NCBI GenBank assembly: GCA_013306675.1
Contig: JABLUY010000047.1
Location: forward strand, 62,001-126,000
From: Thraustochytrium sp. TN22
Lineage: Eukaryota > Sar > Bigyra > Thraustochytrida > Thraustochytriidae
Length of the DNA stretch: 64,000 nucleotides
Direction: 5' to 3'
Shown here piece after piece: positions 25,535 through 61,862 of this stretch. The translations under genes and the position numbers were made by a program. How positions within the stretch are numbered: position 1 is the stretch's first letter; each line of letters starts with the position of its first letter. Under the pieces are notes generated by a model, which did not search any database, was not told where the DNA came from, and saw only the letters and a list, made by a program, of their open reading frames with translations.

Positions 25535-26024
25535 GCTTGCTCGCGGCCGTCGGCGGCGCAAGCCAGAGTCGGGTCTGTGCAGCGGCATGGGTCCCAAGAC
25601 GTGCGATGCGTAGCTGCGAGGGCGCTCGCTCGCGTCCTCGACGCCGCGCTCGCGTCCTCGACGCGCTCCGAGTCTGGCTGGTGCTTGAAGCCTGCTTCGC
25701 CGTCGGGGGCCGTCCGGGTCCGCGCGCGAGCGAGCGCTGAGTGCGCACTGGCGGACACCAGGACACGGACCAGCGCCGGTCACGGCCGCGGGTGTGTCGG
25801 CATGGTCGTCGGCGTGTCCGGGATGGACCGCCCGCGGCGCCCGGACCGCCCGCTGCAAGTGCGGACCGGGAATCGGATCCAAGCGCACGTTCGCCCGAGC
25901 TTAGCGAAGCTGGTGAGCTTACCGAGGCAAATCTGCATCGTGTACCTGCGTCGGCTGCGGCGAGGGCGAGGCTGGCCACGGCACGCCGAGTGTCTGTGAT
26001 CTGGTCCTGCAGGACGGTCCGAGG
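25535..26024. other. Divergent intergenic region, oxygenase / selenoprotein
   Basis: 490 bp between divergent starts. In the selenoprotein frame a stop lies at 25914-25916, and no ATG occurs between it and 26025. A 5' exon for the redoxin would have to lie here if its N-terminus is incomplete; I see no convincing splice pair. Confidence 0.5.
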
Positions 26025-26603
26025 ATGTCGGCGCAAGTGTCGGCGCGCAAGTTGGCGGAGAGGGGCGTGAGCGTGGACGGTCTGGAACATCTGGTCATGG
26101 TGATCTTCCGCGGGACCTGGTGACCCCCGTGCAGGGCTCAGCTGCGTGAGTTGAGCCAGGAGTTGCCTGCGATGAAGAGCGCGGGCGTGGGTTTGGTGGC
26201 GGTGACGCGCGAGCCGGGCGGCGACGAGCGCGTGCTGCAGCGCCTTGGGGAGCGTGACACGGTGCCCGCGTTCCCGGTGCTTTCGGACCCGGACTGCGAG
26301 CTGTTCCCGGAGCCGCATGGAGACATGGTCATCATGACGCCCCAGAACGCGACCAGGTTTGGCGGGGACTACACGGACTATGAGATGGCGCAGCCGGCGC
26401 TCTTTGTGCTGGATGCCTCGTGCCAGGTGGTCTCGTGGTGGAGCTGGAAGGCGCCGGCCATGCAGGCACTCGGCCTGGAAGGGTTTCCGCTCATCAAGTG
26501 CCGTCCGATTTCAAGCGACATTCTGCCAGCAGTTCTGGAGGGCCGCGATGTCAAGGTCCATGATACCATGCAGGCCGAGGAAGATACCGCGAACAAACTA
26601 TGA
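26025..26603 (+). CDS. Redoxin-family selenoprotein (Sec in UPPC motif), TGA recoded
   Basis: Peroxiredoxin-like (AhpC/TSA superfamily, Prx-like2 type) protein of 192 residues if the in-frame TGA at 26121-26123 is read as selenocysteine (residue 33). Around it the sequence reads VMVIFRGTW-U-PPCRAQLREL, which matches the family active site F-Y-R-G-x-W-C-P-x-C-R-x-x-L-x-x-L with Sec at the first Cys. Frame and homology continue after the TGA: GVGLVAVTREPGGDE, FPVLSDPDCELF and the late strand QPALFVLDASCQVVSWW. A SECIS-like element lies 107 nt after the TGA stop at 26601. TGA is an ordinary stop elsewhere here, so recoding is site-specific. The N-terminus is short for the fold; 26025 is the only in-frame ATG. 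Confidence 0.8.
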
Positions 26604-26932
26604 GTGCGTTCGTCCAACCACGGAGAGCGCACCAACGAGTTGCACGTGTCTGCTGAGAAGCAGCAGCTCCGTGCGCCCGTGGACCCAAGTCGTCGACTTA
26701 CTGTCTTAGATGACGCGCGGTCTGTCGAAAGAAAGCCATGTGCTGACAGGCGCGCCGACGTGATGCGACTTGACCTCCGCTCAGGCACACGAGAGTCTCT
26801 GCAACCTTCGGCAGCAGTTATACCTCACAAAAGCAAGCAAGCATTACATTGTCAATGTCACTCTTTCGCCCTCTCTCGCTCTCTCGCTCTCGCTCTCGCT
26901 CTCGCTCTCCAAGACGAAGCGAGGCGGCAGGG
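26604..26932. other. Convergent 3' region of selenoprotein and GT61 gene
   Basis: 329 bp. It contains the SECIS candidate and a (CTCTCG)n pyrimidine repeat at about 26870-26912 close to the GT61 stop. No other feature seen. Confidence 0.6.
26686..26772 (+). promoter_or_regulatory. Candidate SECIS element (form II) in selenoprotein 3' UTR
   Basis: The core ATGA is at 26710-26713 and its partner GA at 26757-26758, allowing the tandem G-A/A-G quartet. Helix II pairs 26715-26726 with 26745-26755, including five perfect pairs CTGTC/GACAG at the top and one bulged G. The 5' bulge GAAAGAA (26727-26733) supplies the required unpaired AA. A short helix III (AGC/GCT) caps it with loop CATGT. A basal 7 bp helix CAAGTCG/CGACTTG (26686-26692 with 26766-26772) closes the element. 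Folded by eye only. Confidence 0.72.
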
Positions 26933-28486
26933 TCAGATACCGGTGTCCTCCGGCACGGCGTCAGCAATGGCGGCCTTGAGCTTGGCAATGGGCGCCTTAT
27001 AGTGACCGGAGGAGTCGGTCTTGGGTGGAAGCGGAAGCGCGCGGTAGGCGGCGCCGACGAACTGGCTGAGGCGGTTGTTGTAGGACAGGCCCTCGAACTC
27101 CGGATCCTGCAGCTCGATGAGCGTGGCGCCCGCCTTTGAGAAGGCAACAAAGGCGAGTGCGGCGTCGTGGAAGCCGGCGATGACGAGCGCCCGATTGGCG
27201 AGCGCGGCGCGGTCGACAAAGGACAGGCCGTCGAAGGGGTCGAAGCGGATGTCGGCGCGGCCGCGGAGGTCCAGCAGCGCCTGCTTGAGGTCGTCCTCAT
27301 CGGCCAGGAACTGGTGGCCACTTTCCGGGTTGCGCAGAAAGATGAGCACGAGCGGGCGGCCCGTGGTCCCGTCCGCGGCGGCCAGAACCGGCGCAGGGCG
27401 GTCCCCGAGCAGACGCGTGAGGAAGGCATTGATGAAGTTGCGCACCTGAGGCACGCGCTTGCACGTGGCGGCCTCGTGGAAGTTCGTCACGGAGAGCGCG
27501 CTGCGCGAGCCGACCGGGACGAAGATGGCGCGGCGAAGGCAGGCGGGCTCCGGAAGCTGCTTCAAGTAGCGCACGGGCGCGCCAAAGACCTTGGCCCAGG
27601 CGGCGTCCAGCGGGCCGCTGGGGTGGCCATCCAAAAAGACCACCTGCACGTCGCCGCCGTCGGCCAGCTGCTGTTGCGCCTGGTAGACGTTGTACCAGTC
27701 GGCCAGCGCTGAGTACACGTCCGAATATTCGTAGCGCGTGACGAAGAGCGTGGGTGTCTCATCCCAGGCCGTGCAGGCGGCCGCCGCCGCCGCATCGGAC
27801 CGGACGGACTGGGCCACCTGCTCGAGGTGGGCTGCGAGCATCTTGGCGTCCCAGGGCGTGGGTGGGAGTGCGCAGTCGAGGCGGAGCGCGCCCTTGGTGT
27901 AAATCGGTGTCTCGTCTGCCTCGGCGCGGCCGGCCACGGCCGACGGCTCCTCGCCGCCCGGCGCCACCTTGACGAGGCGCGGGTCAAGCACGAGGTTGGC
28001 GGCCTCGCAGACGGCGCCGCGGCTGGTCGGGCTGTACCAGCAGTCCATGCTGGCGCGCTCGCCCACGCAAACCTGCACGTCGTTCGTGTACCCGTTTCCG
28101 AACATGCGCTTGCAGACCTCGTCCACGTTTAGGCGCTTGGGCTCCACCCAGAGGTCGTGCCGCTTGGCCAGCTCCAGCTCGCGCATCTCACGCTCGTCGT
28201 CTTCCTCCTCCTCTTGCGCGCGGTCCAGCGCGGCCTCGTGTCTGTCCAGCTCCGCGGCGTGGCCCACGGACGCGCGCACGTCGTCATACGTCTCGGCGGC
28301 CGCCGTGCCACTGCCGCCGCCGCCGCCGTTGCCGCGCAGCATCGCGGCGAGGCCGGCCATGCCGCCGGCGACCTCGTCGTCCCGCTCCACCTGCTCCTGC
28401 GCCAGCGCGCGCGCCTCCCAGCGCGACGCCACCACGAGCGCGAGGCACACGGCCAGCGCCAGCGCGCCGGCAGTCCGCAGCCGCAT
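26933..28486 (-). CDS. GT61-family glycosyltransferase (EOGT/POMGNT2-like)
   Basis: A 517-residue type II membrane protein: cytoplasmic MRLRT, a signal-anchor (AGALALAVCLALVVA, ~6-22), an acidic stem (~95-105), then a catalytic domain. The early Cys-rich part (DCWYSPTSRGAVCEAANLVLD) resembles the N-terminal segment of EOGT. It is followed by DETPTLFVTRYEYSDVYSALADWYNVYQ, VQVVFLDGHPSGPLDAAWAKVF, LVLIFLRNPES and GFHDAALAFVAFSKAGATLIEL. The last corresponds to the GT61 H-G-A-x-L...E-L block, although here it reads GFHDAAL. Predicted Golgi/ER enzyme adding GlcNAc or a pentose to proteins; the exact donor is not determinable. The ATG at 28486 is at the edge of a CGTGC repeat. Confidence 0.82.
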   Translation of the reverse strand: MRLRTAGALALAVCLALVVASRWEARALAQEQVERDDEVAGGMAGLAAMLRGNGGGGGSGTAAAETYDDVRASVGHAAELDRHEAALDRAQEEEEDDEREMRELELAKRHDLWVEPKRLNVDEVCKRMFGNGYTNDVQVCVGERASMDCWYSPTSRGAVCEAANLVLDPRLVKVAPGGEEPSAVAGRAEADETPIYTKGALRLDCALPPTPWDAKMLAAHLEQVAQSVRSDAAAAAACTAWDETPTLFVTRYEYSDVYSALADWYNVYQAQQQLADGGDVQVVFLDGHPSGPLDAAWAKVFGAPVRYLKQLPEPACLRRAIFVPVGSRSALSVTNFHEAATCKRVPQVRNFINAFLTRLLGDRPAPVLAAADGTTGRPLVLIFLRNPESGHQFLADEDDLKQALLDLRGRADIRFDPFDGLSFVDRAALANRALVIAGFHDAALAFVAFSKAGATLIELQDPEFEGLSYNNRLSQFVGAAYRALPLPPKTDSSGHYKAPIAKLKAAIADAVPEDTGI

Positions 28487-32277: not shown

Positions 32278-34731
32278 ATGGCGCGCGCGGCGGCGGCGCG
32301 CTGGCGGCGGCGGCGGCGGCGGCGCGCGCGCTCGGGCGGCGGCGCCCGCGCGGCGGCGGCGCTGCGCGCGGGTGCGCTGCGCAGCGGCGGCGGCGGCGCG
32401 GCCGTGACGGCGTGGAGCCTGGCGAGCGAGGTGCAGAGCGGCGCGGCGGCGCAGCAGCGGCGGTGGGCGCACGGCGGGCCGCCGGGGCAGCCGTGGGTGG
32501 CGCCCGGCGCGGCGCCCAAGGGCGAGAGCCTGCTCAAGTACGGCGTGGACCTGACGGAGCGCGCCAAGGAGGGCAAGCTGGACCCGGTGATCGGGCGCGA
32601 GGCGGAGCTGCGGCGCGTGATCCAGGTGATCTCGCGGCGCACAAAGAACAACCCGGTGCTCATCGGCAACCCGGGCACGGGCAAGACCGCGGTGGCGGAG
32701 CTGGTGGCGCAGCGCATCTGGTCCGGCGAGGTGCCAGAGTCGCTCAAGGACAAGCGTGTGGTGTCGCTGGACCTGGCCGCACTGGTGGCCGGCGCCAAGT
32801 TCCGCGGTGAGTTCGAGGAGCGGCTCAAGGCGGTGCTCAAGGATGTGGAGGAGAGCGACGGCAAGGTGATTCTCTTCATCGACGAGCTGCACATGCTCAT
32901 GGGCGCGGGTGGCGGCGACGGGTCGGTGAGCGCCGCCAACATCCTCAAGCCGGCGCTGGCGCGCGGCGAGCTGCGGTGCATCGGCGCGACGACGCTGGAC
33001 GAGTACCGGCAGTACGTGGAGAAGGACGCGGCGCTGGCGCGGCGGTTTCAGCCCGTGCTGGTGGACGAGCCCAACGTGGAGGATACCATCTCGATCCTGC
33101 GCGGGCTCAAGGAAAAGTACGAGATTCACCACGGCGTGACCATCAAGGATGACGCGCTGGTGGCGGCCGCCACCCTGGCCGACCGCTACCTGACGGACCG
33201 CAAGATGCCGGACAAGGCAATCGACCTGGTGGACGAGGCGGCGAGCCGGCTGCGCATGCAGCAGGAGTCCAAGCCGGAGCCCATTTGGCAGCTGGAGCGC
33301 GACATCGTGACGCGGCGCATCGAGGTGGAGGCGCTCAAGAAGGAGACGGATGCCAGCTCCAAGGATCGGCGCGCCAAGATTCAGGCGGACGTGGACCGTA
33401 TGGAGGCGGAGCTCAAGCGGCTCTCCGAGGAGTGGCAGGAGGAGAAGAACCGGCTGGAGGAGGTCAAGGGCGCCAAGTCGCGTCTCGAGGAGGCTAAACT
33501 CGAGCTGGAGCGTGCGCAGAAGCAGGGCAACTTTGAGCGCGCCGGTGAGCTCCGGTTCGGCATCATCCCGGACCTGGAGGCCAAGGCCGCGCGCGAGGAC
33601 AGCAGCGCCACCTCCGCGGCGGCGTCCGGGGCCTCCGGGGCCGGCGGCAAGGGCTCGCAGATGCTCGAGGACGCCGTGACGCGCGACCTGGTCACCCAGG
33701 TCGTGGCGCACGCCACCGGTATCCCGGTCGCCTCGCTGATGCATGGCGAGCGCGAGAAGCTTCTGCACCTCGACGAGACGCTGCGCGCGCGCGTCGTGGG
33801 CCAGGACGAGGCCATCGCGGCCGTGGCGGACTGCATCCGCCAGAGCCGCGCTGGCCTGCACGGCCACGACCGGCCGCAGGGCGTCTTTCTGTTTCTGGGT
33901 CCAACCGGCGTGGGCAAGACCGAGTCCGTCAAGGCGCTGGCCAAGGCGCTTTTCGACGACGAGTCGGCCATCTGCCGGATCGACATGTCCGAGTACATGG
34001 AGAAGCACTCGGTGTCGCGCCTCATTGGCGCCCCGCCGGGCTATGTCGGTTACGAGGAGGGTGGTACGCTCACGGAGGCGGTGCGCCGCAAGCCGTATCA
34101 GATCATCCTGCTGGATGAGTTCGAGAAGGCGCACCGCGACGTGTCCAACATTCTGCTGCAGCTCTTCGACGAGGGTCGCCTCACAGACTCGCACGGGCGT
34201 ACAGTTGATTTTCGCAACACCATCGTCATCATGACCTCGAACCTTGGCAGCGACGTGCTGGCGGCGCACGCCGGCTCTGCGCAGGACGACGACGTTCGCG
34301 ACCTCGTCATGGATCGTGTGCGCGCCTTCTTTTCGCCCGAGCTGCTCAACCGTATCGACGAGATCTCAGTGTTTAATCGTCTGCGGCGCCAGGACATGGA
34401 CCGTATCGTGGAGATCCAGCTCGCGCACATCAAGCAGCGGCTGCACGACGACCGGAACATCGAGCTGGACGCCTCGCCGGCCGCTGTCGATTGGCTTGCC
34501 GAGGCCGCTTACGACCCAGCCTATGGCGCGCGTCCCCTCCGTCGTGTGCTCCAACGTAAGCTGCTCTCGCCGCTCGCCACCAAGCTGCTGCAGGGCCAGG
34601 TCCTGGACGGCGCGCGCGTCTCTCTGGATGCCGAGCCCGGCGCCGACGGCCTCGACATAACGATCCACAACCCCGAGTCCGCGCACGACAACCATGACGA
34701 GGCCCTTGCAGCCTCCTCTTCAGCCGCCTAA
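32278..34731 (+). CDS. CLPB: Mitochondrial ClpB/Hsp78-type disaggregase
   Basis: AAA+ protein disaggregase working with mtHsp70. The 817-residue product starts with a very Arg/Ala-rich presequence (1-~70, ending near QRRWAHGG) and lacks the bacterial N-terminal Clp repeats, as in yeast Hsp78. NBD1 has Walker A GNPGTGKT (~131-138) and Walker [11 protein letters not shown]. The coiled-coil middle domain follows (~335-445). NBD2 has GPTGVGKT (~541-548), GYVGYEEGG and [11 protein letters not shown], and sensor/arginine region SPELLNRID. The C-terminal D2-small domain ends [14 protein letters not shown] Gly/Ala-rich linker ([15 protein letters not shown]) near 445 is an insertion. The start at 32278 is the only in-frame ATG near the presequence. 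Confidence 0.97.
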
Positions 34732-54476: not shown

Positions 54477-55082
54477 TCAGTGAACGGTGGAACCTTCAAA
54501 GGCCTCGTCATTGTCGTCGAAGTCTTCGTCGTCGCGGTTGGCCACAACGGAGCGACGGCCAAAGGCCTCAATGTCGTCATCGTCATCATCGAGCGCGTAG
54601 GGCGAGAGCTGGACGGCCTTCTTGCCGCTGTAGATGCCGCGCTCGAGGTCGTCTGAGGCGTCGTCGTCGTCCTCGGAGTTTTTGCGCGGTCGGAGGGTCA
54701 TGTGCCTGGAGGAGCCGCCGTTGTGGCTGGAGAGCGTGTCTGGCTCGGGCTGGCGCACGGAGGGCCGAAACAGAGAGAGGATGCCGGAGCTCATGCGCGA
54801 GGAGACGCGGCGGGCCGAGCCGCTCTCGAGCGCGAGCAGCTTGGCGGCGCGCTCCACGGGGGTTGCGGCCTCGAGGTCGGCGGTCTCGGCCTCGTCATCG
54901 TCACTGTCGTCGTCGATCTCCTCCAGGTCGTGAGGGTGCTTCTTCTTGGGCGCCGCGCTGCTCCCGCGCGTGGCGCCCACCACGGCGAGCATGGAGGAGA
55001 CCGGGCGGCGCAGCGAGATGCGCGCGGACTGGCCTCGGCGCAGGGCGGCCCAGGAGCCGGCAGCGCTGGCACGCCGCACTCT

Positions 55083-55115
<33 letters not shown>

Positions 55116-58100
55116 GCCCTCGGTGTGCATGTCTGGGTGGTGCGAGCCCAGGCGCACGTTGCGCAGGTACGACATGTTAAGCGCCATGGAGCTGCGCTGC
55201 ATGACGGCCGGCACGAGGTCGTCGAGAGGGTTACCTTCGTCGACGTTGGTGTCCGTCTCGCCATCGGAATCGTCGTCGTAGTCGGTGTAGTCGTCGTCGT
55301 AGTTGCCACCATTGAGCGTTGTGCGGGCGGTGCGGGCAGTGAGGCGCGAGGAGGACTGGCCCGCAACACTCTTGGGGGCTGCGGTCTTGCGCGCCTTGCG
55401 GCCGGCCTTGGTTTGGCGCCGAGGGCGCCGCGTTACCGTGGCAGCCTCGGCTGGGCCTGCCCGGGCGACCTGCACATTGATGGGGCTGAAGATCTTCACG
55501 CTGTAGGGCGGCGGGTTGAGCTTGAGGCCGGCCGGGTCATCGGGTGCCGTGGCGTACTGCAGCATGACCTCGTGATGGCGGTCATAGGTGGCGGACTCCT
55601 GGTGGCCGCGCATGGCGAGCGCGAAGTTGTCCTCGCCGATGAGCTTGCGCTTCTGCTGCGCCTTCTGGCTGAGGACGAGGTCGTTGAGCTTGCGGTCGTC
55701 GTCCTCGACGATGTAGCCGCAGAGCGTAAGGATTTGTGCGTCGCCAAGGCTGACCGGGTCGCGAGGCGGCGCGCGCGAGCGCGCGTCGGGGACGACCTGG
55801 CGCGAGCCGCCGACGTCGGTGCAGACGACTGGCATGTGTGCCATCTCGGCCTCGAGAATGGCCATGGGCAGGCCCTCGCTAAAGGAGGAGTTGATGAAGA
55901 GGTCGCCCTTGGCCAGCACGCGGAACTTGGCACCGAGGCCGTGCAGCATAACGTAGGGCTCGAGGCGCAGCTCGTGGATGGCCTGCTTGCATTCGGCAGT
56001 GTACTTGGGATCCTTGTCCAGACCGCCGAAGATGTGGAGCCGGTAGACCGTGACGCCGCGCACATGCACGATGTGGTGCGCGGCACGGATGGCGTTGAGG
56101 ATGTCCTTGATGCGCAACACGTGGGAGAGCGCGACAACGTGCACATGGTCCGGGTCGTGGACCGGGCCGGACATCGCTTGCAGCTTGGGGTCCTCATAAA
56201 AGTCCGGGATGGGCTCGTGCACGAGCTGGTCGGCGAGCGGCTCCGTGCCGTTGGAGATGGGCTTGATGCGCTTGGCGAAGGGCCCGTGCGAGGGCCGGCC
56301 GGCGATGAGGCAGATCCACGAGCGGTACATGTCGGTGTCGGTGCAGGGGCAGATGAGGTCGGCCGTGTTGTAGACGAGGCGTGCCGTGAGGCGCGTGAGA
56401 CCGATAATGGCGTTGCGCGTGAAAGGGTGCAGCAGGCAGTCCTCTGCGCAGAGCTGGTCGAGGCGCTCGCGCAGCAAGATGCCGTGGTCCCAGACGATGA
56501 CGCGCGACTTGAAGCGCTGCTTGTGCACAATGGCCTTCAGCGCGCCGATGCCGTGGTGCGACGAGTGGTAGACGTCGCCGCGCGGGAGTTCACACATGAA
56601 GGAGCGCAGCGTCTGCGAGAAGAAGATGAGCGACTCCTGCAGGCCCGGCAGGGTGGGCGCCCAGAGGCGCTGCACGGACTTGGGCTTCTCCTCAAGGATC
56701 ATGAGCCACGTCTGCACCCAGACGCGCCACGTGAGACCGTCGGTCCAGGCGGTGTTCCAGTCGTAGTGCTCGAAGAACTCATAGAGCGCCACGACGAGCT
56801 CGGAGAAGTACTCATTGACCTGCGAGGAGCGGTCGTCCACGCCCTGCAGCTCACAGCAGCCGCGGATGAGCTCGCGCAGCAGCGGGTGGAAGCGCGCGCG
56901 CAGCACCCAGGACGTGGTGCGCTGCTTGCGCAGCGCCAGCTCGTAGTACGGCCGGTTGGAGTGGATGGAGGACTCGGGCGAGCTGGTGACGTCGTGCAGC
57001 GGGATGGGGTGGATAGCGCTCACGCAGCGTGTGGGCGCCGCGATGCGCGGCGTCGAGTTGGAGGCCACCTCGGCCAGGACGTGCAGGTTGAAATCTTCGT
57101 TGACGCCCTCGTGGTTGATGAGCTGCATGAGGCAGGTGGTGACGCCGCCCGAGACGTAAAAGAGCGTGGCCGAGGCGTCGACGACAACGTCCACCTTGTC
57201 GGCCCGCGCCGGGTGGATGGTCAGGTGCGAGGCGCCGGCGCCGCCCATGATGAGAAGGTCCTGCGCGTAGTGCGCCAGCGTGGTCTTCTCGAGCGTCTTG
57301 GTGGGCGGCTGCAGCTCGGACTCCACGAGGCGCTGCGTGGCGCGCGAGAACTTGAGGAAGCCGATCTTGCCGCGGCACATGCGGTAGCGCTCGGTCCAGT
57401 ACGGCTTGAGTGCTGCGACGCGCATAAGGATCATCTCGTCCAGCACGGAGGCCAGCATGCCGGGAACCATGGTCTGGCCCTGGTCGTTGAGCTCATGCAC
57501 CTCGAAGAGCGTCGCGCGCGCCTCCTTCCGGAGCGCGAGCAGCGCCTCGCGGCCCTCCTCCAGCTTCAGCTTGGGATGCGCCGCCTTGAGACGGCCACCC
57601 GCGGTGCGGCCCCTGCACTGCAGGTAGAGCGGCGAGCAGGACCAGGCCAAGGTGCGGATGTTGCGCTCGAAGAGCGGGCGCGCCACGTAGCCGTGTACGA
57701 GGAGCAGCAGGTTGTACGAGCTGAAGATGGACGGGTTGATGTCGACGTGCTTAATGTACGCGCAGACCTCGCGGTGCACCTGCATGTCGCCGCGCAAGCC
57801 AATGTACCAGAGGCGCATCGAGGCGGACGTGAGCACGTGCATCCAGCGAAAGAGCGAGAAGCATTGGCCGCGCACCATGGAGCGCACAATGGCGAAGAGA
57901 CCGCGCTTGCGGCGCAGGACCGACTCGCAGTAATCGCCGATCTCGAGCGCGAGTTCCTTCTGCACGGCGCACGCCTCGACCCAGGATCCCTTGTCGAAGC
58001 GCCAGCCCACGGGCAGGCGCTTCGCGTTGGCGTTGCGGCGCTCCACCTCGGCGTCGGTCTGCTCCAGAAGGTGATGCAGGCGGTCCGTGCGTGCGCCAGA

Positions 58101-61100
58101 GGCCATACGCTCGAGCTGCCAGCGCGTCGTCCGCGGCAGAAAGCCATCCTGGCGCGCCTCGAGCATGGCGAGCTCCGCGACGCACGCCAGCGCGTGGCTG
58201 CGCGTTGTGTCTTCGACGTACTCGTGCAGGATGCACTCGGCGATGCGGCCGATGGCATCGTCGACGTGGGCGTCGTCCTCCGGAATGGGGCGGTCGTAGC
58301 GGCGGCGCAGCACGGCCGGGTCCACGCCCACGTAGATGCTGAGGCGGTTGTGCTGGTCCACGCCGGCTCCCATGGCGGCGTTGGCGGCGCGCATGCCCTT
58401 GGCTTGCACGCCGGGCATCTCGCTCGTGGTGCCAGAGGCAGCCATGCCGGTGGCGAGACGGCTGCGCATGCCGAGCGCCACGAAGCCTTCGCGGTAAAGC
58501 ACGTTGGCATCGCACAGGTAGACCTGCGTGTTCCCGTTGCGGCACTCTTGCATGAGCGTGTCAAGAAGAGTGAAGATGATGCCCTGCAGCACGCTGTGCT
58601 CGCCGGGCGCGCCGTCTTGGAAGCGGTTTGCGGAGGAGCGGGGCAGCTCGCCGACGACGGAAGCGGCCGTGGCGGGGTTCTGGTCCGGGACAATGGAGCA
58701 GAGCGCGCTGCGCGCATAGAGGTGGCGCTTCCTGTCGATAAAGTCGAGCACTTGGTCGCCCAGGCCGTTCGTTTGGAACGGCAGCGGCACGGCGTTGATG
58801 GTGCCCTTGCGCAGCTTGTCGGCGAGCTGCTGCTCGCGCACCTCAGGCTTGACCTGTGTGAGGCCGCCGCCGTCGAGGATCTTCTTGCCGCTGGTCATGG
58901 GAATGTCATTCGGATCGATGGTGTTGTGCCAGGTGTTGCGCGGCTCCAGCACGAGATGGCGCACGGTGTGCGCGTAGACCAGGGTGGCCGTGACAAAGCC
59001 GAGGAGCGCGCCAAGCGCCAGCGGCGACAGGTAGAGGTAGACGAGACCGGAGAGAAAGGCGACGAAGCAGGTGACGCGGAACTCCACGAGCTCCTCCCAC
59101 TCGACCATGGACTCCATGCGCACGAGGCGCATGAGCGGGTAGAAGCCGTAGACCACCAGGTTGGCGAGCAGCGTGGCGGCGATGGCCGAAATGAGGACGC
59201 CAGCGGAGGACCCGGGCGTGGCGCGCGCAAAAAAGGACTGATTAATGCGCAGAATGGCGGCCTCGCCGGCCCAGAAGCTGAGAACGGCCGTCGACACGGT
59301 GAGCACGAGCTGCACAAAGGTGGCGCGCGATATGTCGAGGACGAGGTTGGTGATGAGGCGGGGCGCCGTGAGGTCAAAGGTGGCGTACGAGAGCGCCAGG
59401 TAGCGCAGCATGCGAATGCCGACGCAGGTGATGACGACGATGGGCGCAACGGCGAGGATGGAGTACATGCTGACGACGGCGAAGAGCGCAAAGACGAGCG
59501 CGCCCACGGCAATGCCCACGACGACCGCCACGTGCGCGCGGTCCGCGTAGCCGCTGAGGAACATGCGCGAGATCATGGCGTGCAGCACGAGGTTGTAGCC
59601 TGTAGAAAAGGGCAGGACCACGAAGAGCGCCGCCGGCTCGATCAAGTAGACGCAGACCGTGGCGAGCAGGTACCAGCGCAGCGCGGTGAGCTGAAAGCTG
59701 CAGATGATCCCGCCGTAGGCCTCGAGGCGCGCGGCGTGCACCTTGTCTTCGACGTTGCGCACGATGCGGCGCGAGGCAGGGATGAGCAACTCGTGGTTCT
59801 CGCGCTGCTTCGCGTCGGCGATCTGGCCCACGAAGAGCTCGATGGTGCCGGCGGAGAGCAGAAAGGCCACCATGGCGTACATCACGCCGCGCGCCACGAC
59901 ACTCGAGGTGCCCTTGGCGAAGAACATGGGCACGGCCGAGAAGGCCAGAATGACAAAGTACATGACGCCGTGCACGATCTCGTTGATGTTGGCGTCAAAG
60001 AGCTCGCCGGAGCGGCGCTCCGGCGTGCCGATGGTCGACTTGCGCAGCTCCTCCATGGCCATGCCAAAGTACTCCCAGAAGCCGCTCGTGGCCGTCTCTG
60101 CGTACGGCTTCCACTGGTCCAGATCCGGGTTCTTGCGGTTCACGATCCAGAGTGCCTCCTCGCGGTCCGCGCGGCTGCGCATGCGCAGCTTCGCCTCGGT
60201 GTCGCCGCCCTTCATCTCGTCCGCGAGCCGCAGCAGGCCGGGCAGCCAGAGCTGCCAGCGCTTGGACAGCATGCGCACGCGGACGATGACCACCAGGACG
60301 GCGGTGCTCAGGGTCGCGGCGTGCAGGCCGACCCAGAAATCCTCCGAAGCCCACAGGCCGGCCGCGTTGTCTTGCACCCAGGCCTCAAAGGCCTCCGCGC
60401 GCATCGCCTGTTGCAGCATGAACGGGACGAGCATGACGCAGAGCACGAGGAGCAGCCAGGAGAGCCCGCGGCCACCGGGCAGCTGCACGTGCGGGTCCGG
60501 CACGCGGAAGAGGTAGAGCATGGTGGTGACGAGCATGAAGAGCCCGAAAAAGAGCGCCACGAGGGCCACGAGAAAGGCGCGCAGCACATTCCAGTGCGAG
60601 AGGACAAGCGCGATGATGAAGGCCACGAGGCCGCCGGCAAGCGCGCAAACCACGCCGCCCGTGAAGTCACGGCTCAACACCGTAGGGACGCTGGCCAGAA
60701 CAAGCTGGTACAGATATGGCGAGGCGTTGCGGCTCATGGACATCATGAACGGCAAGACCGAGACGAGGCCAGCCGCGAGCGCGATGGTGACCAGATTCTT
60801 GGTCCCCTGACCCATGGTGCTGCTTGTGAAGACGCCCGAGCCCGTGAAGCCCTCGAGCAGGAGCTCTGCCATGACGACCACCACAAAGAAGTAGCCGTCG
60901 CGCACGAGCGAAGTCCTGCTCCACGCGGGCTGGTCCCAGCTCATGCCCTTGGCGCCGCCGGGCCTCAACTTCTGCAGAAGGAAGCGGTGCGTTTGGCGCG
61001 CAATCTCGTAGAGCGAGATGCCGTAGCACTCCTCGAAGTCCTCAAGGTGGCACACCGTGGTTTCCAGCCAGACTGCCACGGCCATCGGGTCCTCGGGCAG

Positions 61101-61862
61101 AAAGGTCTTGAACTTGACCATGGCGGCCTCACGGATCTCTCGCCGCGCCTTGCGCTGCATGTCTGGCGTACGATTGGTCGTGCGCTGGCGCAAAAGGTTG
61201 GTGTACTTCATACTGACCTGGCCCTCGTCGCCGGCGTCAGCAGCGCCAGCCTCGAGGTCGGCTGGGCCGTCGGACTCGGCCTCCTCATCGCCGGCGTCGG
61301 CGCTCTTGTGCTCGCGCCGCCGCTGCTGCTTCTCCTGCTCTGCTGACTCCTGCTCTTCCTCGTCGGCCAAGATTTGGCGCTGCGCCCGGGCTTGCCTCCG
61401 TGTCTCGCGGTAGCGCCGCAGCTGGTCCAAGCCGAGGTACGTCAGCACCCAAAAAGCGGCAAAGAGGAGCAGGCCCATGAGCGAGAAGAGCACCTCGCGG
61501 AGCTCGCTCTCCGGCAGCGGCGCATAGTCGAGCGTGGTGACCAGGCGGCCGTCCACGGTCACGTCCACCGTGGCCAGCGGCGCCGCCGGCGTGGCGTCCA
61601 CGCGGAAGCCAAGGTCCGCCTCGGACCAGGTCGCGTTCCAGGTGCCGGTGGACCCGTCCTCCAGCACGGCCGTGGCGACCACGGCAGCGTCGCGGCACGC
61701 CACGGCATTCAGCCCGTCCAGCCGCAGCACGGGCACCACGATGCTCAGCACGTCGCGTTTGAACGCGGGCGCATACTTGCCGTTCAGGCTCCACTCGAAG
61801 CTGGTGGGCGCGAGCTGGCTCGCCTCCACCCACGCGAACGCCGCGTCGCTGCACGCCGCCAT
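54477..61862 (-). CDS. Giant polytopic membrane protein with PelF-like GT4 glycosyltransferase
   Basis: A 2,461-residue protein. Residues 1-~120 look like a lumenal beta domain, followed by TM1 (~123-147) and a charged loop. From ~305 to ~1,050 there are many further hydrophobic helices (roughly fifteen). The cytosolic part follows: an alpha/beta segment (~1,085-1,350), then a PelF-type glycosyltransferase. VYHSSHHGIGALKAIV and VIVWDHGILLRERLDQL (~1,764-1,800) match the PelF N-terminal lobe. The GT4 nucleotide-sugar motif NSSFSEGLPMAILEAEMAHMPVVC (~1,994, a contiguous family block) and DVGGSRQVV follow. The C-terminal ~270 residues are acidic and disordered. In bacteria PelF makes the Pel exopolysaccharide with membrane partners, so this fusion may synthesise and export a polysaccharide; that role is inferred. 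The N-terminus lacks an obvious signal peptide. Confidence 0.85.

Follow-up and report, generated by a model that had tools for sequence, protein, structure and literature searches.

Selenoproteins annotated as peroxiredoxin-like (Prx-like) thiol:disulfide oxidoreductases, with the Pfam domain PF00578 and a UxxC or UxxU motif, have been described in bacteria (PMC13188914, PMC2398784), and 225 sequences termed "Prx-like 1" were reported in GOS (PMC2398784). A 2026 review lists the motif of Prx as TxxU and that of the Prx-like thiol:disulfide oxidoreductase as UxxC (PMC13188914). On the eukaryotic side, AhpC_b of Thalassiosira oceanica has an AhpC_TSA domain and a UxxC motif; a SECIS was reported for it, its closest published homologues are prokaryotic Cys forms, and T. 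oceanica is the sole carrier named in the report that describes it (PMC7539508). A Prx-like selenoprotein was also reported in Ostreococcus lucimarinus (PMC2375036). SelL, a Prx-like protein of aquatic organisms (PMC2398784, PMC2397514), is described as having a diselenide bond (PMC2397514).

Here, we examined a redoxin gene at positions 26025-26603 (+) of the window, by which we mean the whole 64,000-nucleotide stretch of DNA that was analysed, together with the genome to which it belongs (37.9 Mb in 453 contigs). We are highly confident that the gene belongs to a eukaryotic microbe and encodes a selenoprotein, that its UGA at codon 33 (UGA33) is read as selenocysteine (Sec) by means of tRNA-Sec, eEFSec and a SECIS, and that its AhpC/TSA product with a U-P-P-C active site is most likely a thiol-disulfide oxidoreductase or a Prx-like reductase.

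Comparison with described Prx-like selenoproteins

As far as the prokaryotic Prx-like selenoproteins are described in the cited reports, they share with the redoxin gene the same Pfam domain and the UxxC motif. They are bacterial, whereas the redoxin gene comes with a eukaryotic-type SECIS-like element 3' of its stop codon and with eukaryotic Sec machinery. A comparison by description only with AhpC_b shows that the two are alike in the eukaryotic host, in the SECIS reported for AhpC_b and the SECIS-like element found here, in having a UxxC motif within an AhpC_TSA domain and in having prokaryotic Cys homologues, and the latter two features, which we take together as typical of AhpC_b, were both found here. 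The O. lucimarinus Prx-like selenoprotein likewise comes from a eukaryotic microbe, a likeness drawn from its description.

The best NCBIfam match of the product is NF040769, SelL-related redox protein, at residues 21-94, and its 28.4 bits against a cut-off of 120 bits place the product outside this family by score. The motif of SelL is UxxU. By its description, SelL has two Sec residues in a diselenide, whereas the product of the redoxin gene has a single Sec in U-P-P-C. The genome also encodes a Cys paralogue (on contig C60, see below) that shares the R-G-x-W-C-P-x-C pattern and the AhpC-TSA match with the redoxin gene, but differs from it in having Cys in place of Sec, a longer N-terminus and no SECIS core.

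The original prediction had called the gene an otherwise undescribed UPPC redoxin of the selenoprotein type. A UPPC redoxin selenoprotein it very likely is, but it is not new in kind, since UxxC Prx-like selenoproteins have already been described in bacteria and, as AhpC_b of T. oceanica, in a diatom. Tentatively, the gene might represent a eukaryotic UxxC Prx-like selenoprotein family of its own, distinct from both SelL and AhpC_b, which diverged from the Cys paralogue still present in the genome, although we regard this as rather doubtful. If true, Sec and Cys forms would occur side by side in one organism, as a natural pair with which to study what has kept selenium in this fold. The gene is in any case a well-supported addition to eukaryotic selenoprotein catalogues. 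It adds to the diatom AhpC_b another eukaryotic case of UxxC in an AhpC/TSA domain, one for which the genome itself provides a Cys paralogue for comparison. Annotation software that always takes UGA for a stop would shorten or lose it.

A redoxin reading frame with one internal TGA

The coding sequence (26025-26603, +) begins with an ATG at 26025 and has a sole in-frame stop within its 192 codons, the TGA at 26121-26123 (codon 33); the next in-frame stop, the TGA at 26601-26603, ends a product of 192 residues. With the internal TGA read as Sec, the translation contains ...VMVIFRGTW-U-PPCRAQLRELS..., and both the coordinates of the frame and its interruption at FRGTW-TGA-PPC agree exactly with the original prediction.

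For profile scoring, we replaced the U of the 192-residue product with C. The product then matched Pfam AhpC-TSA at residues 22-135 with 39.7 bits (cut-off 26) and Pfam Redoxin with 30.1 bits (cut-off 26.6). The first of these scores lies above the curated Pfam cut-off and places the product in the AhpC/TSA family (PF00578), and the two matches together indicate that family-like sequence is present on both sides of the TGA, as had been claimed. The N-terminal positions 1-24 of the AhpC-TSA profile are unmatched by the product.

Base composition also follows the frame across the TGA. Before the TGA (26025-26120), the first, second and third codon positions have a GC content of 0.62/0.44/0.88. 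In the part that follows the TGA (26124-26600), the values are 0.68/0.45/0.81, and a reference coding gene in the same window, an AAA+ ORF, has 0.73/0.45/0.90. The values are 0.67/0.64/0.69 upstream of the ATG (25917-26024) and 0.70/0.50/0.55 in the same frame after the stop codon (26604-26930). This pattern indicates that a single frame looks coding through the internal TGA, and not past either end. The frame after the TGA stop (26604-27002) is open for 132 codons and overlaps the SECIS-like element; since the third-position GC drops to 0.55 at 26604-26930, translation probably does not continue past the second TGA. At the other end, the exact start codon is uncertain, as the frame is open from 25917 and the coding signature begins at about 26001-26025. 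We also considered an upstream exon spliced at the CAG before 26013, but the in-frame sequence upstream is without the coding signature, and the start was kept as uncertain.

Predicted product and function

The predicted product is a thioredoxin-fold protein of 192 residues. It falls into the AhpC/TSA (Prx-like) group and has the active site U-P-P-C, in which Sec33 (26121-26123) is the N-terminal residue and Cys36 (26130-26132) its UxxC partner. Judging from motif and family, it is probably a thiol-disulfide oxidoreductase that links Sec33 to Cys36 through a Se-S bond. For the insertion of Sec, the catalytic cycle, the substrate and the reductant, we infer the following course. The UGA at codon 33 would be decoded as Sec by tRNA-Sec and eEFSec, and the decoding would be guided by a SECIS about 107 nt past the UGA stop codon. 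The selenolate of Sec33 would most likely attack a disulfide, a sulfenic acid or a peroxide, after which Sec33 would form the Se-S bond with Cys36 and cycle like the CxxC of thioredoxin-fold oxidoreductases. This bond could then be re-reduced by the thioredoxin or the glutathione system.

A different function, which would be fully compatible with the recoding, is that of a true peroxiredoxin-type peroxidase. AhpC-TSA is the best Pfam match of the product and lies above its cut-off, as would be expected of such an enzyme, but the motif is UxxC (G-T-W-U-P-P-C) and not the TxxU listed for Prx. The peroxidatic motif of peroxiredoxins proper, TxxU or, in its Cys form, TxxC, is absent from residues 30-33, which read G-T-W-U. 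Moreover, among proteins of solved structure, those closest in sequence are 3kcm, which belongs to the thioredoxin family, and several ResA entries (E 0.0002-0.0008), and they speak against a peroxidase. We therefore consider the peroxidase unlikely, and prefer the oxidoreductase with its Sec33-Cys36 pair.

The residue aligned with the TGA

The TGA falls on the column of the first Cys of the CxxC motif. A search of the organism's own genome with the whole protein (E up to 1) returned the redoxin locus itself and one other locus, C60:84960-85391 (-), and no second copy of the redoxin locus was found by this protein search. The C60 paralogue is 33% identical over residues 24-167, has no internal stop and matches AhpC-TSA with 36 bits. 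Its motif, R-G-H-W-C-P-Y-C, places a Cys directly under the TGA (WCPYC). It is also the closest to the redoxin gene among the seven AhpC-TSA matches in the genome, the redoxin gene included. Since the paralogue was found by a search with the whole protein, it tests independently whether Cys is the residue under the TGA.

Bacterial relatives show the same residue. The best 80 of 239 sequences from a prokaryote genome scan have Cys at positions 33 and 36 without exception (80/80); 72 of these 80 carry RG[TH]WCP[PY]C, the Cys-requiring pattern with which they were fetched, and are therefore not an independent test of the Cys at either position. Cys homologues at the TGA, which the original prediction had proposed to look for, are thus present in both the paralogue and the bacteria, with the weight on the former.

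When the query was aligned with 60 of the 80 relatives, the invariant columns were R29, G30, W32, C/U33, P34 and C36, while G54, D88, P124 and R160 were nearly invariant and are retained in the query. In a tree of these 60 relatives and the paralogue, the branch of the query is very long (2.53) and stands beside three Armatimonadota rows with a support of 88/89, a placement to which we attach no weight. A protein search of phage and viral-contig collections found no relatives. The DNA pattern F-R-G-x-W-TGA-P-x-C occurs at three loci in the viral contigs, and the stop-free stretches of at least 60 residues at these loci gave no match to the query at E 0.001.

The top AhpC-TSA match in the genome belongs to another gene, a peroxiredoxin-like one with PVCTTELG at C299:155970-156281 (+). 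A TGA and a TAG lie inside this gene, and they may represent an intron that was read through.

Selenocysteine machinery and other Sec genes of the genome

The genome contains the machinery that a eukaryotic selenoprotein gene needs, namely tRNA-Sec, SepSecS, SelD/SPS and eEFSec, in line with what the original prediction depended on. A tRNA-Sec with the anticodon TCA (UCA) scored 73.9 bits, above the gathering score of 47, and ARAGORN concurs with the assignment; a second, weaker match, at 44.7 bits, is a tRNA-Ser according to ARAGORN. SepSecS was found with 548.4 bits, and the selenophosphate synthetase SelD/SPS with 273.3 bits in a match without an internal stop. Domain III of eEFSec scored 101.7 bits, and this family was detected in none of 14 control genomes. 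That the organism is a eukaryote follows from this eukaryotic domain together with the size of the genome. For PSTK, there was a partial match only, which at 50.5 bits is below the cut-off.

Three further genes carry a TGA at a Sec position, in places which we take to be the classical Sec positions of these families: a SelT gene at C419:25995-26417 (+), with FCTS-U-NYR, and two glutathione peroxidase (GPx) genes, at C43:78231-78425 (+), with NVASK-U-GLT, and at C97:38687-38854 (-), with NVATT-U-GTT. The first of these GPx genes forms a tandem Cys/Sec pair with a GPx at C43:76813-77019, which reads NVAGQ-C-GLT; both are on the plus strand, and the Cys and the Sec occupy the same column. The one Sep15/SelM gene and the two MsrA genes that were found have no TGA within the match.

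From these genes, TGA seems to have two roles in this genome, as a Sec codon and as a stop codon. We also considered TGA as a general sense codon of this genome. This reading was rejected, as a TGA ends the redoxin gene, where the coding signature stops, as well as the GPx gene at C43:78231-78425 and the C60 paralogue, and the TGAs of SelT and the two GPx genes are at Sec positions.

A SECIS-like element downstream of the redoxin gene

We scanned the 797 nt 3' of the redoxin stop for a core and stems in the order NTGA, stem, AA, stem, GA, with the energy of the redoxin hit itself as the energy threshold. The scan found a single site, AUGAC-stem-AAA-stem-CGAC, that is, an NTGA-AA-GA core with a helix, located 3' of the stop codon. 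The SECIS-like element spans 26685-26783 (+), and its core lies 107 nt from the stop. The 5' half of the core, AUGAC (26710-26714), is followed by the 5' arm of helix II, GCGCGGUCUGUC (26715-26726), which pairs with the 3' arm, GACAGGCGCGC (26745-26755), and the 3' half of the core, CGAC (26756-26759), comes directly after it. The unpaired AAA of the apical loop (26728-26730) begins 14 nt after the UGA, a spacing that the SelT element and one of the two GPx elements share. A UGA-to-AA spacing of 10-13 nt is stated in a published description of SECIS elements (PMC2375036), so that the redoxin element is longer by one; its AA-to-GA spacing of 27 nt is inside the range of 15-39.

With short loops, a match arose in 3 of 1000 dinucleotide-shuffled versions of the 797 nt (in 1 of 1000 for the first 330 nt), and the whole window has one site per strand. 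These settings miss the SelT element, and longer loops are needed to recover it. With long loops, 23 of 1000 shuffles of the 797 nt match, and the whole window has two sites on the plus strand and one on the minus strand. At this setting, exactly one core was found in the 797 nt after the stop in four of the four genes with a Sec TGA, the redoxin gene included, and in one of seven genes without a Sec TGA. That one is the MsrA at C188:128694-129146 (-), with a GUGAC/CGAC core of -29.6 kcal/mol about 330 nt past the gene and no TGA in the match; we read this core as a false positive or a leftover. In the 797 nt after their stops, neither the C60 Cys paralogue (long-loop scan) nor the Cys GPx at C43:76813-77019 has a SECIS core.

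The four elements of the Sec-TGA genes resemble each other in geometry. Their cores lie 90-129 nt from the stop, with a strong SECIS 123 nt after the TAA stop of SelT, and strong ones 90 nt (C43:78231-78425) and 129 nt (C97:38687-38854) after the stops of the two GPx genes. The UGA-to-AA spacings are 14, 14, 14 and 13 nt, and the AUGAC/CGAC core is identical in the redoxin element and in SelT. In stability, the redoxin element is the weakest of the four, with a stem of -16.1 kcal/mol compared with -27.5 to -37.7 kcal/mol in the other three, and a fold z-score of -0.71 for its 99 nt (66 of 300 shuffles fold as low) compared with -1.71, -3.21 and -2.62. By this measure, its fold does not surpass that of shuffled sequence. 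An Rfam search of 26685-26783 and its surroundings (25900-27500) gave no SECIS. Genome-wide, the Rfam model SECIS_1, with 133 of 175 first-look candidates scored, gave none either, and it missed even the three stronger elements; therefore, this model is uninformative for this organism.

The presence of this element bears on whether the TGA is real. An ordinary Cys redoxin, with a TGC or TGT misread as TGA in sequencing, would require only a single base change, at a base that rests on a single assembly locus, and Cys is indeed the residue in the paralogue and the bacterial relatives. However, such an error would not create a SECIS-like element with the core and spacing of this genome 107 nt past the stop, and we therefore consider it very unlikely; the organism also has Sec machinery and three more genes with a TGA at the Sec position. 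That the gene is decaying, or that the TGA is a real stop that leaves a short peptide and a dead frame, would fit the unmatched profile positions 1-24 and the very long branch, but is hardly credible for a frame whose sole stop in 192 codons coincides precisely with the first Cys of the CxxC motif, whose third-position GC is still 0.81 after the TGA, whose nearly invariant G54, D88, P124 and R160 are kept and which is followed by a SECIS-like element. A Sec in place of the first Cys in the CxxC motif of a redoxin, as first proposed from the reading frame, is instead consistent with the Sec machinery, the Cys homologues, the coding continuity and the SECIS-like element alike.

Other open reading frames of the window

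Convergent with the redoxin gene is an ORF of 517 aa at 26933-28486 (-), which has a weak match to Glycosyltransferase 61 (21.2 bits, cut-off 27). Further downstream, 32278-34731 (+) encodes a ClpB/Hsp100-type AAA+ protein of 817 aa (Pfam AAA_2, 226.7 bits). Two very long open frames, of 2461 aa at 54477-61862 (-) and of 2214 aa at 54702-61346 (+), lie on opposite strands, and they are perhaps an effect of the high GC content.
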